In this document: piece after piece, positions 2,808-41,084 of the stretch
How positions within the stretch are numbered: the first letter of the stretch is position 1
Layout: each line of letters begins with the position of its first letter
From: an uncultured Gammaproteobacteria bacterium
GTDB lineage: Bacteria; Pseudomonadota; Gammaproteobacteria; JAADHQ01
Length of the DNA: 64,000 nucleotides
Assembly (NCBI GenBank): GCA_947258655.1
Contig: CAMYJD010000014.1
Location: 1 to 64,000 of the forward strand
Direction: 5' to 3'
The notes under the pieces: generated by a model
Seen by the model: only the letters and a program-made list of their open reading frames with translations
The model's database searches: none
What the model was told of the DNA's origin: nothing
Position numbers and translations under genes: made by a program

Positions 2808-3416
2808 TTAGTTATATGAGCGCATCTGTGCAACCAGCACGCCCTGGATATGTACCCGATGCGCCTCGAAGGTCATCGGTCGCATGTCGCTGTTTTCCGG
2901 TATCAGTGTCACGGTACCATCCTGGTTATTGCGAAAGCGTTTTAATGTCGCTTCCTGCTGGTCGACCAGGGCGACGACAATCTCGCCATTACGCGCGGTT
3001 ATGCAACTTTCGATGACGACCATGTCGTCGGGGAGGATGCCGGCCTCAATCATCGATTCCCCCTGGACCTTCAGGACAAAACGCCCGGGACCCATAAAAA
3101 AGTCGGACAGGTTCAGTTCATCCTGGTCCGCAATGGCCTCGATGGGCAGGCCGGCGGCGATGCGTCCGAGCAGCGGCAATACCGCGGCGTTTTCGTCCTG
3201 TGCCTGTTCCTGGCCGGGTAATTGAATGCCGCGGTGACGGCCGGGGATCAGTTCGATCAACTCGGCCTTTGCCAGTGTCTGCACATAGCGGTGGACAACG
3301 CCCTTGGACTTGATGCCAAGGCCACTGGCTATTTCTTCCAGTAACGGGCCCTGGCGGTGTTCGCCAATGTAGTTACGAATAAAGTCATAGGTATCCTGTT
3401 CACGTCGGGACAGCAT
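2808..3416 (-). CDS. lexA: LexA-family SOS repressor (divergent paralogue type)
   Basis: This 202-residue protein has a winged helix-turn-helix (about 1-66) and an S24 peptidase domain. The self-cleavage site is A88-G89 in GRIAAGLP, the nucleophile is S121 in QGESM and the general base is K159 in EATLKRF, so RecA-stimulated autocleavage should work. The recognition helix (KSKGVVHRYVQTL) differs clearly from the enterobacterial RSPNAAEEHLKAL, which fits the different operator upstream. ATG 3416 is chosen over GTG 3425 because GAGG lies 8 nt before it. It leads a leftward set lexA, GxxExxY, dinB. It may be a second LexA of the genome rather than the main one; the window cannot tell. Confidence 0.9.
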   Translation of the reverse strand: MLSRREQDTYDFIRNYIGEHRQGPLLEEIASGLGIKSKGVVHRYVQTLAKAELIELIPGRHRGIQLPGQEQAQDENAAVLPLLGRIAAGLPIEAIADQDELNLSDFFMGPGRFVLKVQGESMIEAGILPDDMVVIESCITARNGEIVVALVDQQEATLKRFRNNQDGTVTLIPENSDMRPMTFEAHRVHIQGVLVAQMRSYN

Positions 3417-38211: not shown

Positions 38212-38799
38212 ATGAAGACTATCCAGCTGCCATTATTTCCGTTGCATACCGTGTTGTTCCCGGGTGGGCCGCTACCCCTGAGAATTTTTGAAACACGTTA
38301 TCTGGACATGGTCAGCCAGTGTCTGCGCAATGATAGTGGCTTTGGTGTGTGTATGATCAGGCATGGTCGGGAGGTGGGTGAGCCTGCCAGTACCGAAGAG
38401 ACGGGCGTGGTTGCGCGCATTACTGACTGGCATCAGCGCCACGATGGACTGCTCGGTATTACCGCGATAGGCCAACAAAGGTTCAGGATCGCTTCGGTGC
38501 GTGTGCAAGCCAATCAACTGGCAGTCGCCAAGGTGGAATTGCTGGGTAATGATTCGTCGATTGAATTACCGGACCGGTATTTGCCACTCGTCGATATGTT
38601 GATGCGTTTGATCGACTCTGCAGGGCATCATTATGCCAACCTGCCACGTCACTATGCCGATGCCAACTGGGTGTCATACCGGCTGGTGGAATTACTGCCG
38701 ATTGAGATGAAGCAGAAGCAGCTCTTTCTGGAAATGGAAGATCCTCTGGCAAGACTGGAAGAGCTCTACCAGATGCTGGAAGGGATGCAGGTTGTTTGA
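38212..38799 (+). CDS. LON substrate-binding-domain protein
   Basis: The 195-residue protein consists of the N-terminal LON (PUA-like) domain alone: IQLPLFPLHTVLFPGGPLPLRIFETRYLDMVSQCL at its start (given here as family pattern over about residues 3-37), FGVCMIRHGREVG and a helical C-terminal half (LPIEMKQKQLFLEMEDPLARLEELYQML). No ATPase or protease part is present. Such stand-alone proteins are common in proteobacteria and poorly understood. ATG 38212 is the family start; the open frame extends upstream inside ubiX without support. Confidence 0.88.
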   Translation: MKTIQLPLFPLHTVLFPGGPLPLRIFETRYLDMVSQCLRNDSGFGVCMIRHGREVGEPASTEETGVVARITDWHQRHDGLLGITAIGQQRFRIASVRVQANQLAVAKVELLGNDSSIELPDRYLPLVDMLMRLIDSAGHHYANLPRHYADANWVSYRLVELLPIEMKQKQLFLEMEDPLARLEELYQMLEGMQVV

Positions 38800-38810
38800 G
38801 TAACAACAGG

Positions 38811-39068
38811 GCATAGAGATGGGGGGTTGATTTATTCTTTAAATGAATGGTGCTTTGCTACCGATTTCCCCTCTCATAGTGCATAGCGATGCCACAGAAT
38901 CCCCCTCCTTGAAGGACGACTCCAGGGATGGAGTCGGTACGATCCCAGGGAAGGGATCGGTAGACTGCGTCCGGAACCTGCAGTCGAGAACGACGCCCGG
39001 AGCCAAAGTCGAGGGGGGAAATGGGTGGCATCTCTATGCGCTTTTATTTAGCTATGAATGATTTATTC
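38811..39068. other. Structured multi-hairpin element bounded by 10-bp direct repeats
   Basis: The direct repeat TGATTTATTC is at 38828-38837 and 39059-39068. Inside, 38881-38895 pairs with 39025-39039 in 14 of 15 positions, and CCCCCTC (38901-38907) pairs with GAGGGGG (39011-39017). This outer stem encloses at least three hairpins: CGACTCCA/TGGAGTCG (38917-38936, loop GGGA), CGATCCC/GGGATCG (38940-38959) and GACTGC/GCAGTC (38963-38985), with a weak fourth CGAC/GTCG (38991-39011). GCATAGAGATG at 38811-38821 is perfectly complementary to 39029-39039, so it competes with 38881-38891 for the same partner. The short frame through it is not a convincing gene. Confidence 0.65.
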
Positions 39069-41084
39069 CCTGGACTCGATCAACAGGATTTCCCCGTTCC
39101 AGCGCTTATGATCGATTGCATCGGCATCCCTGTAAGCAATGCTCAATTTTAGTTGTTTGAGTTGTTGGCGCAATAGTTTCGTCGGGCCAGTAAATTCCTG
39201 AATGGTTACCGGATAGTGGAACAGGTTCAGAAAAGACTTGGTCTGCATTATCGCGGCCTGGCCGATCCACACCGGTTTATCGTTCCAGGATGTATTCGTT
39301 GGCCAGAAGCGAATGACCGATAGTAGCTTACTGTCGCTGTCGTAATATGACATTGCCATGGTTTCATGTTTGCCTTTATGGACCTGAGGTAAAACAGGTC
39401 GTTCATTCAGCGGTGTCTGCTTGCTTAGCCATTTCATCGAGTTGGGTAATGTCAATTCAAGTGCCGGAATCCAGCCATGGGCCGTCAATGTTTTATTGAT
39501 ATCAACGATAGTATCATTCCATTGAATATTGAATGGGTAGCCTGAGGTGTCGGCCAAATCGTTCCTGTAGACAGGCAGTGTTTTCCAGTCTTGCTCAGGC
39601 CAGTTGGCAAAATGTAGCTTGGCTATGTCTACTTTGCTTGTATAACGCTGCCATTCACTTTCAAAGTTCAGTTGCCAATGCGATATCGCAGTAAACAGGA
39701 TTGCGGCCGTGGTTACCGCAAACAGCGGTCTGGCCGGTAAAGCAGCCGATGGATGGCGCCGGTAGGCGATGCCCAGCAGAGTTATCCAGATGAGGCCCAG
39801 TGTCAGGCCGCCAATGACATCGGATAACCAATGCGCACCCAGATACAGGCGTGATATGGCTATCAGGCTGATGATAATCCCGAAAACCACATAGACATGG
39901 ATGCGCTTGTCTGCACGAATTTCACGGCTAATGATGATCGAAAGAAAACCATACAGTAGCATTGCCATTGTGCTATGTGCACTGGGGAATGAGTAATGTG
40001 ATGCAAGCGGAAACAGGGAAGGGTCAGGCCTGGGTACTTGCAGGCTGATTTTCAGTACGCGTGTAAGGATCGCGCCAAAAATAATGGCTGCCCCCAAATG
40101 CAGTGCTGCCGGTATATTACGCTGGTACAGTAGCCATGCAAGCACTATGGCAGTAATGCCGCTAACCACGAACGTATCACCCAGCATGGTTATCCAGATC
40201 ATGAGCTGGTCCATCCATGGTGTGCGTAAACTCTGCATCAGTTCGTAGACACGCTGGTCTACTGTTATAGGCTGTCCCGCCAGGGAGCCAATGATAAAGA
40301 AGAAGCCGAGGCCGGATAGTATCAGGATCAGTGCAAAGAGTAACAGTGCCGGGGATTCGGGCTGGCGTGGATCGACCAATGCCTGGATGGATGGTCCGAT
40401 GATGCTGTGTCTGCGTGCCCACTGCAAGCTCTGACGGGAAATGGCATCGGCCCTGGGTTGGAGGTAGTGCAGTGTTCTGCGCAATAGCCAGCGAATGATT
40501 AACAAGGCGATGATGACCACGAAGATCAGCGCGACCAGCCTGATGGCAACTTCCGATGCCAGTTCCAGTGACGCGCCGAACACCATGCCTGGCAACAGGT
40601 AGGCGGGTGCCCATGCTATCGCAGACAGGACGTTGATAATCGTGAAGCGCATGGGCGACATGCCCATCATGCCGGCAATGGTCGGTATGACGGCACGAAC
40701 CGGACCAACGAAGCGTCCGAAGACGACACTCTTGCCGCCATGTTTACGAAAAAAATCCTCGCCGGTCTGGAATTGTGACTTGAAATAATAAAAAGGCCAG
40801 ATGTTTTTCAGCTGTTTCTGGTAACGGTAGCCAATCCAGAAGCTGATACCATCGCCGGCTATCGCACCGGCGATACACAGCAACATGGTCGTCGTGAAGT
40901 CGAGCAGGCCCAATGCTATCAAGGCGCCGAAGGAAACAAGCAATGCGGCCCCCGGCACCGGGATACCGATGAGTAGCATTGATTCCAGCATTGCGACTGT
41001 GAAGATAAATACCCCGGTCAGTACCGGGTACTGATTGATCCAGTCAACAAGCCAGGCAAGCTGTGGGTGGGTGATTTCTTCCAT
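39063..41084 (-). CDS. DedA-PAP2-LssY-like three-part membrane protein
   Basis: The 673-residue protein joins three parts. Residues 1-200 are a DedA/SNARE-associated domain (PVPGAALLVSFGALIA, GDGISFWIGYRYQ, FGRFVGPVRAVIPTIAGMMGMSPMRF), of the undecaprenyl-phosphate or phospholipid flippase family. Residues about 245-440 are a PAP2 phosphatase: KISLQVPRP, PSAHSTMAM and SRLYLGAHWLSDVIGG give the three active-site motifs. The last 200 residues after a further membrane helix resemble the LssY C-terminal domain. The set suggests lipid-phosphate dephosphorylation coupled to transport. Its TAA stop lies within the right direct repeat of the hairpin element. Confidence 0.85.
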   Translation of the reverse strand: MEEITHPQLAWLVDWINQYPVLTGVFIFTVAMLESMLLIGIPVPGAALLVSFGALIALGLLDFTTTMLLCIAGAIAGDGISFWIGYRYQKQLKNIWPFYYFKSQFQTGEDFFRKHGGKSVVFGRFVGPVRAVIPTIAGMMGMSPMRFTIINVLSAIAWAPAYLLPGMVFGASLELASEVAIRLVALIFVVIIALLIIRWLLRRTLHYLQPRADAISRQSLQWARRHSIIGPSIQALVDPRQPESPALLLFALILILSGLGFFFIIGSLAGQPITVDQRVYELMQSLRTPWMDQLMIWITMLGDTFVVSGITAIVLAWLLYQRNIPAALHLGAAIIFGAILTRVLKISLQVPRPDPSLFPLASHYSFPSAHSTMAMLLYGFLSIIISREIRADKRIHVYVVFGIIISLIAISRLYLGAHWLSDVIGGLTLGLIWITLLGIAYRRHPSAALPARPLFAVTTAAILFTAISHWQLNFESEWQRYTSKVDIAKLHFANWPEQDWKTLPVYRNDLADTSGYPFNIQWNDTIVDINKTLTAHGWIPALELTLPNSMKWLSKQTPLNERPVLPQVHKGKHETMAMSYYDSDSKLLSVIRFWPTNTSWNDKPVWIGQAAIMQTKSFLNLFHYPVTIQEFTGPTKLLRQQLKQLKLSIAYRDADAIDHKRWNGEILLIESRE

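Follow-up and report, generated by a model that had tools for sequence, protein, structure and literature searches.

The hairpins at positions 38917 to 39012 of the window, the whole 64,000-nt stretch of DNA that was analyzed, are best read as a 48-nt non-autonomous double-hairpin mobile element nested within a second copy of itself, a reading that is probably right. The size of the unit, its nesting, filled as well as empty forms, the A^G target, covarying stems with constant loops, dispersal, and in-frame copies within genes are seen directly in the sequences; transport by a Y1 transposase and binding of CsrA are proposals. The core is exactly 96 nt long and consists of two copies of a unit made of hairpin A (23 nt, loop ANGGAN) and hairpin B (25 nt, loop NNGGA), arranged in the order A1[A2 B2]B1. 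When the region was compared by BLAST with its own genome, about 50 segments came back, spread over different parts of the query; the region is therefore a mosaic, namely a nest of several repeat families, and the two TGATTTATTC words on either side of the hairpins do not mark its ends. With these own-genome segments, relatives in many families and both filled and empty sites, the first-pass annotation of the region as a mobile structured repeat proved right in kind, and its interpretation as a whole is partly supported. The element is filed among the very small non-autonomous hairpin elements. No earlier description of a 48-nt nested double-hairpin element or of mobile CsrA-site repeats was found in the open-access literature searched.

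The 48-nt unit, its nesting and its target

All features are given on the plus strand. Hairpin A1 (CGACTCCAGGGATGGAGTCGGTA, 38917 to 38939), with a loop of the ANGGAN form, is followed by the inner unit, composed of hairpin A2 (CGATCCCAGGGAAGGGATCGGTA, 38940 to 38962) as its first half and hairpin B2 (GACTGCGTCCGGAACCTGCAGTCGA, 38963 to 38987) as its second, and then by hairpin B1 (GAACGACGCCCGGAGCCAAAGTCGA, 38988 to 39012), the second half of the outer unit. The hairpins noticed at first, counted as at least three, are real, and their number is four. In the same genome the outer pair A1B1 occurs alone (L013 and L017), as does the inner pair A2B2 (L014). Deletion of the inner 48 nt from the window left 67/72 ungapped identity to L013, and deletion of all 96 nt left an uninterrupted palindrome, as at the empty site L019. 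The element is also missing from the syntenic gap of G003, which speaks for the mobile reading. This host palindrome, present uninterrupted as CCCCCTCCTTGAAGGAGGGGG at L019 and L021 of the same genome, is split in the window into a left half (CCCCCTCCTTGAAGGA, 38901 to 38916), ending in the target A at 38916, and a right half (GGGGGG, 39013 to 39018), which by comparison with L019 begins with the target G at 39013.

In arrays parsed from all fetched loci, 52 of the 71 distinct contiguous arrays were balanced (AB, AABB, and AAABBB), and 19 were unbalanced, mostly through a diverged B. The length of AB was 48 nt in 33/37 cases and that of AABB 96 nt in 10/11, and nested AABB arrays were counted 11 times versus 2 for tandem ABAB. 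In an array at L053 (G128:C9), three pieces were left halves of B and five were right halves (GGAGCAGTTACCGA, five times), a pattern that suggests slippage on top of insertion.

Insertions were located at A^G with no target duplication: the base at -1 was A in 48/52 and the base at +1 was G in 46/52, neither being preset by the parser, and some of these copies sit in a common host repeat and so do not count as independent. The wider target context was often GGA^G or GGTA^G. Units were found inside other repeat families, namely, at GTCATTGCGAGGA^G (L035 and L040), in GTCATTCCGGG...GCGGA^GACCCGGAATCC repeats (L031, G025, and G172), and in CCTCAGGGA^GAGGG-type palindromes, with CGTC-REP-like GTCATTCC...GGAATCC palindromes as frequent hosts. 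Units were also found inside B hairpins, at GGAGCA^GTTGCC in L114 and at ACGCA^GGAGC in L162. Many copies ride within other repeats (G616, G012, and G025/G172), and therefore not all copies are independent insertions. In genomes G616 (L181, L191, L195, L199, L203, and L206) and G012 (L033 and L042) the units lie within larger repeats, which in G616 have the ends GTAACTGTTCAG...CTGAATAGTTAC; several of the G616 copies have common flanks, and the units were thus amplified as passengers.

According to the proposed mechanism, the element would insert precisely between A and G, adding 48 nt and duplicating no target. Its own A/B junction (GGTA^GA) and its B hairpin would then serve as targets, so that copies would enter copies and build balanced arrays. 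In the window, the first unit would have entered the loop of the C/G palindrome (GAAGGA^GGGGGG), which by then lay within a larger inverted repeat, and the second unit would then have entered the first.

Distribution across genomes and genes

A 15-base pattern for hairpin A was found in 36/369 gammaproteobacterial genomes, with at most 28 occurrences per genome, while a reversed control gave 1 match. Genomes with one hit only, such as G153, G169, G504, and G636, seem to match by chance or through coding sequence, and the matches in G451 (GATGCCAGGGATGGCATC) are part of a different repeat with no following B. In the phylum sample outside the class the A pattern recurs in one family (f207), and no match was found in viral contigs. 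The named hosts include Methylobacter, Sedimenticola, Acidiferrobacteraceae, Ca. Spongiihabitans, and a Nitrospira MAG. The arrays on contigs of the latter (MohnsGC08_bin011; L123, L135, and L148) are genuine unit arrays, and they may reflect cross-phylum transfer or mis-binning. The strings of CC-loop-GG hairpins that the first-pass annotation placed in other gammaproteobacteria do exist.

In-frame copies were identified in grpE products, at the C termini of ornithine carbamoyltransferase (argF) and FliH, in the tail of an S41/PDZ protease (ctp), in a LysM-M23 linker, and in an IS256-type transposase, so that the element also gives proteins, among them products of housekeeping genes, 16-residue insertions. 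In the IS256/Mutator-type transposase open reading frame (L078, G313:C110), the 48-nt unit at 1500 to 1547 is in frame and adds 16 residues (TTPWMEEVGRRRKPKP). When intact copies of this transposase were sought in relatives to serve as the empty site, the copies that turned up were all partial and diverged, and the evidence for that site is therefore its frame and exact length. In Ca. Spongiihabitans thiooxidans (L151, L141, and L129), GrpE, the S41 protease, and a large protein carry in-frame arrays, which sit in linkers or tails and give the recurring peptide DDPRDGGGTTP...ELSLEQKSRATQDAKA. A coding meaning of the array was rejected: more than one reading frame is used (D-S-R-D-G-G-G in most genes, T-P-W-M-E-E-V in L078) and intergenic copies occur, and the peptide is therefore a by-product.

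Stem covariation, movement and competing readings

Covariation in hairpin A was analyzed in 72 distinct sequences, 70 of them gathered without a stem requirement. In the 4-bp stem, 94.1% of cells were paired, compared to 69.2% with re-dealt partners and 37 to 57% when slid by 1 to 3 columns, and 56 double changes were observed versus 12.2 expected; the search pattern for many loci contained CC...GG, so that their two inner A pairs were preset and the two outer ones free. Since the loop was part of the search pattern, its conservation was checked in units taken only for abutting a known unit, and ANGGAN was kept in 37/38 distinct units of this kind. Each B hairpin carries NNGGA as a loop of 5 nt on a closing stem that is usually 2 bp long, with a short bulge on the 3′ side and an outer stem that varies; the B hairpins formed 5.6 pairs compared to 3.6 with the arms swapped. 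The stems thus covary strongly, and the loops are fixed. Compensatory drift of the stems together with constant loops indicates that the folded single strand is what matters.

The element could conceivably move as folded single-stranded DNA by means of a trans-acting Y1 (HUH) transposase, an idea that stays somewhat short of even odds. The pattern resembles IS200/IS605-type Y1 transposition in that insertion is exact and duplicates nothing, a hairpin stands at each end, and a folded strand is recognized. Set against the insertion of such elements 3′ of a short fixed target, the units have a left A in 48/52, but the fixed target is only about 1 to 3 nt. A GTAG foot is formed by GGTA of hairpin A and the following G of hairpin B (unit positions 20 to 24), a result partly preset because the pattern used to fetch most loci included GGTA. 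Y1_Tnp was present in 34/36 carriers versus 207/333 other genomes (P = 3e-5, ignoring genome size and phylogeny), and it gave no hit in G101 or in G240, a 99% complete carrier with 4 matches to the unit pattern. No A or B hairpins flanked Y1_Tnp genes at any of 30 loci (90 kb) in carrier genomes. RAYT genes as hairpin carriers were rejected, as these 30 Y1 loci have GGGGTCAG-type repeats instead of A or B. RAYT-like genes at L082, L083, L093, L104, and L106 are flanked by repeated GGGGTCAG(A/G)-type words, not by REP hairpins. Lagging-strand orientation showed no bias, with positive local GC skew at 33/60 arrays, a weak measure on short contigs. A reverse-transcriptase route was rejected, RVT_1 being absent from the element's own genome and not associated with carriers (17/36 versus 119/333 others, P = 0.2). 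Movement of the element within a strain was not observed.

The strongest competing reading, possible but somewhat doubtful, is that the arrays are kept since their RNA binds or titrates CsrA/RsmA, the hairpins A and B forming a two-site ligand of one CsrA dimer and mobility being secondary; the arrays would then be dispersed CsrB/RsmZ-like decoys or CsrA-responsive mRNA 3′ ends. The preferred sites of CsrA/RsmE are ANGGAN hexaloops on short AC/GU-closed stems, and the protein can span pairs of sites spaced 10 to 63 nt, with an optimum above 18 (PMC7652899), and RsmN binds the 5-nt GGA loop of RsmY (PMC3791407). Hairpin A, an RsmE-type ANGGAN hexaloop on a C-G-closed 4-bp stem, resembles CsrA SELEX ligands (PMC7652899), and the 5-nt GGA loop of hairpin B is comparable to the RsmN-bound RsmY-1 hairpin (PMC3791407), but the B loops lack the conserved A of ANGGA; hairpin A thus conforms to the CsrA ligand rule and hairpin B matches only its GGA core. 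The GGA-to-GGA spacing from A to B is 21 to 22 nt, within the bridging range. The GGA strand was co-directional with the left neighbor gene in 24/35 cases (24:11, P = 0.04) and sense in 10/13 genes (10:3 intragenic, P = 0.09), a modest bias. The csrA gene was found in all 30 high-quality carrier genomes, as is expected in this class, but it was looked for in carriers only and does not discriminate. Against the reading, copies differ in place and number from one relative to another, as expected of selfish DNA, a transposase acting on single-stranded DNA might just as well read the loops, and the Rfam models for CsrB/RsmX/Y/Z, like TwoAYGGAY, had no match in the window at the gathering score and no relevant one at E ≤ 5.

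Because both hairpins expose GGA loops, transcribed copies of the mobile element may, as a prediction from sequence, bind CsrA dimers. Both functions would be joined in a selfish 48-nt element that is a mobile two-site CsrA ligand, its fold recognized twice, at the single-stranded DNA stage by a trans-acting transposase and at the RNA stage by CsrA/RsmA. Such an element would seed CsrA-binding sites in 3′ regions, intergenic gaps, and genes across Gammaproteobacteria and build decoy arrays by self-insertion; this combination is speculative and rather unlikely. If the GGA hairpins do bind CsrA, a global regulon could gain or lose binding sites by transposition. Two units were located within about 1.2 kb of csrA on the same contig (G301:C13, unit at 88538 and csrA at 89171; G313:C110, unit at 1983 and csrA at 3161), compared to about 0.1 expected by chance in a rough estimate. 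In G012, sub-threshold TwoAYGGAY matches at L042 (903 to 966, 39.7 bits) and L033 (787 to 850, 37.9 bits), versus a threshold of 43 bits, lie several hundred nt from AB arrays, within about 0.7 kb.

Growth of the arrays by replication slippage or hairpin-hairpin recombination, without insertion, is improbable. Tandem ABAB arrays exist (L039 and L047) and five B half-units are repeated at L053, but the order A1[A2B2]B1, with distinct inner and outer pairs that occur independently, cannot arise by tandem duplication, and exact 48-nt insertions were found in genes and in other repeats. For the tandem arrays, slippage may still hold.

The array in the window is embedded in older repeats within a gap between a plus-strand LON-like gene (ending at 38799) and a minus-strand DedA/PAP2 gene (39063 to 41084), both named from a reading of their translations alone. 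Reading of own-genome copies separated the layers into an outer inverted repeat, an AT-rich repeat of about 37 nt, the C/G palindrome, and the hairpin array. The inverted-repeat scan returned I1 (38878 to 38905 with 39015 to 39042) and I2 (38802 to 38821 with 39029 to 39048), and the scan and folding recovered both stems of the first-pass annotation, outer and C/G-rich, as well as its inner hairpins. Its single nested element is a stack of repeats, with the hairpins real and the unit much smaller. The left arm of the outermost inverted repeat (AACAACAGGGCATAGAGATG, 38802 to 38821), which includes the upstream word noticed initially, is 85% complementary to 39029 to 39048 in I2, and the ends of this repeat, AACAGTGCATAGAGATG...CATCTCTATGCACTGTT, recur in other own-genome copies (L019 and L006). 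A second left arm (AGTGCATAGCGATGCCAC, 38878 to 38895) is partnered with 39025 to 39042 in I1 and in the RNA and DNA folds, and the right arm (GTGGCATCTCTATGCGCTTTTATT, 39025 to 39048) is common to I1 and I2. A copy of the separate AT-rich hairpin repeat (TTGATTTATTCTTTAAATGAATGGTGCTTTG, 38827 to 38857) includes the left TGATTTATTC; further copies, with other flanks, are present at L010 (GCTTGATTTATTCTCTAAATGAATGGCCCTTTG), L006 (4 copies), and L024 (in tandem). At L024 (own genome C5:171019-171177) this repeat (CCGCTTATTTATTCTTTAAAAGAATGGCCTTTTAGG) is tandem; it is also dispersed and occurs within the outer inverted-repeat family.

It is very improbable that the element acts as a local regulatory RNA whose two folds exclude each other and control the convergent neighbor genes. 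The region folds far better than its shuffles, as the suggested folding check revealed, with an RNA minimum free energy of -116.6 kcal/mol compared to -86.4 ± 4.8 (z = -6.2, 0/200 shuffles equal) and z = -6.2 for the DNA fold as well. An alternative partner for the outer stem also exists: the upstream word at 38811 to 38821 (GCATAGAGATG) can pair with CATCTCTATGC (39029 to 39039), in competition with 38880 to 38891. However, the two exclusive folds arise because two left inverted-repeat copies compete for one right copy, such repeated left units are also present at the unrelated loci L016 and L006, the element is not conserved at the syntenic site of G003, and nothing shows a switch. No Rfam model matched the window at its gathering score, and E ≤ 5 yielded only a chance lncRNA match.

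Least credible of all is a composite MITE, that is, one mobile repeat bounded by TGATTTATTC target duplications with the hairpins as its interior: the 10-bp direct repeat exists, with exactly 2 occurrences across the entire window (38828 to 38837 and 39059 to 39068), and the genome has further copies of the outer inverted repeat, but the left word belongs to the different 37-nt repeat family and lies within the outer inverted repeat, the right word is gene sequence beyond the element, running across the stop codon at the 3′ end of the DedA/PAP2 gene, both the element and the word are missing from the G003 syntenic gap, the core is also found free of the shell (L014, L035, and L078), and the unit has neither the terminal inverted repeats nor the target-site duplication of classical MITEs. 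For the first three of these reasons TGATTTATTC was rejected as a target duplication, and a role as the footprint of an insertion is not supported.

Comparison with known systems

The movement of elements shorter than 50 nt is a long-standing puzzle, posed by REPs, cyanobacterial small repeats, and mitochondrial GC clusters. The 48-nt family is a clean case: its size is fixed, its target is two bases long and is not duplicated, its nesting follows a countable grammar in which the order of insertion is recorded, and its compensatory stem changes point to the folded form as what gets recognized. Cyanobacterial small dispersed repeats, fungal mitochondrial double-hairpin elements, and yeast mitochondrial GC clusters such as GC42 are likewise tens of nucleotides long, hairpin forming, mobile, and able to merge into composites, and no carrier enzyme is known for them. 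The likeness is one of kind only, hosts and sequences being different. As far as searched, no description of a balanced nesting grammar was found for the small repeats, the mitochondrial elements, or the GC clusters. In the yeast mitochondrial GC cluster GC42, an AG target-site duplication occurs (PMC4478555), in contrast to the 48-nt unit, which has none.

TwoAYGGAY (RF01731), predicted to bind CsrA (PMC4333381), and CsrB/RsmX/Y/Z share paired GGA-loop hairpins with the unit, but each is a fixed sRNA locus and not a dispersed mobile unit. Rickettsia palindromic elements are tolerated in frame within protein genes, and RPE-4 and RPE-6 are classed as CGTC repeats (PMC3733652); the 48-nt unit resembles them as an in-frame palindromic repeat and differs in sequence and size. 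The CGTC REPs themselves are proteobacterial palindromic repeats without a known dedicated transposase (PMC3733652), and the units differ from them in lacking the CGTC tag, the AT-starting 8- to 9-bp stem, and the CCA tail.

A further close comparison is with REP/REPIN systems mobilized by RAYT (Y1, IS200/IS605-like) and with GTAG REPs (PMC3733652 and PMC3116915). The 48-nt unit differs in consisting of two unlike hairpins in direct order, not of inverted REPs, and so does not form the long hairpin of two inverted REPs that makes a REPIN; it is also exactly 48 nt long, inserts into itself, and has fixed GGA loops, and no unit-flanked RAYT gene was found. It is like these systems in being short non-autonomous hairpin DNA with compensatory stem changes and without coding capacity, in having carriers in which Y1 genes are common, and, as in GTAG REPs, in the GTAG word that stands at the foot of hairpin B.
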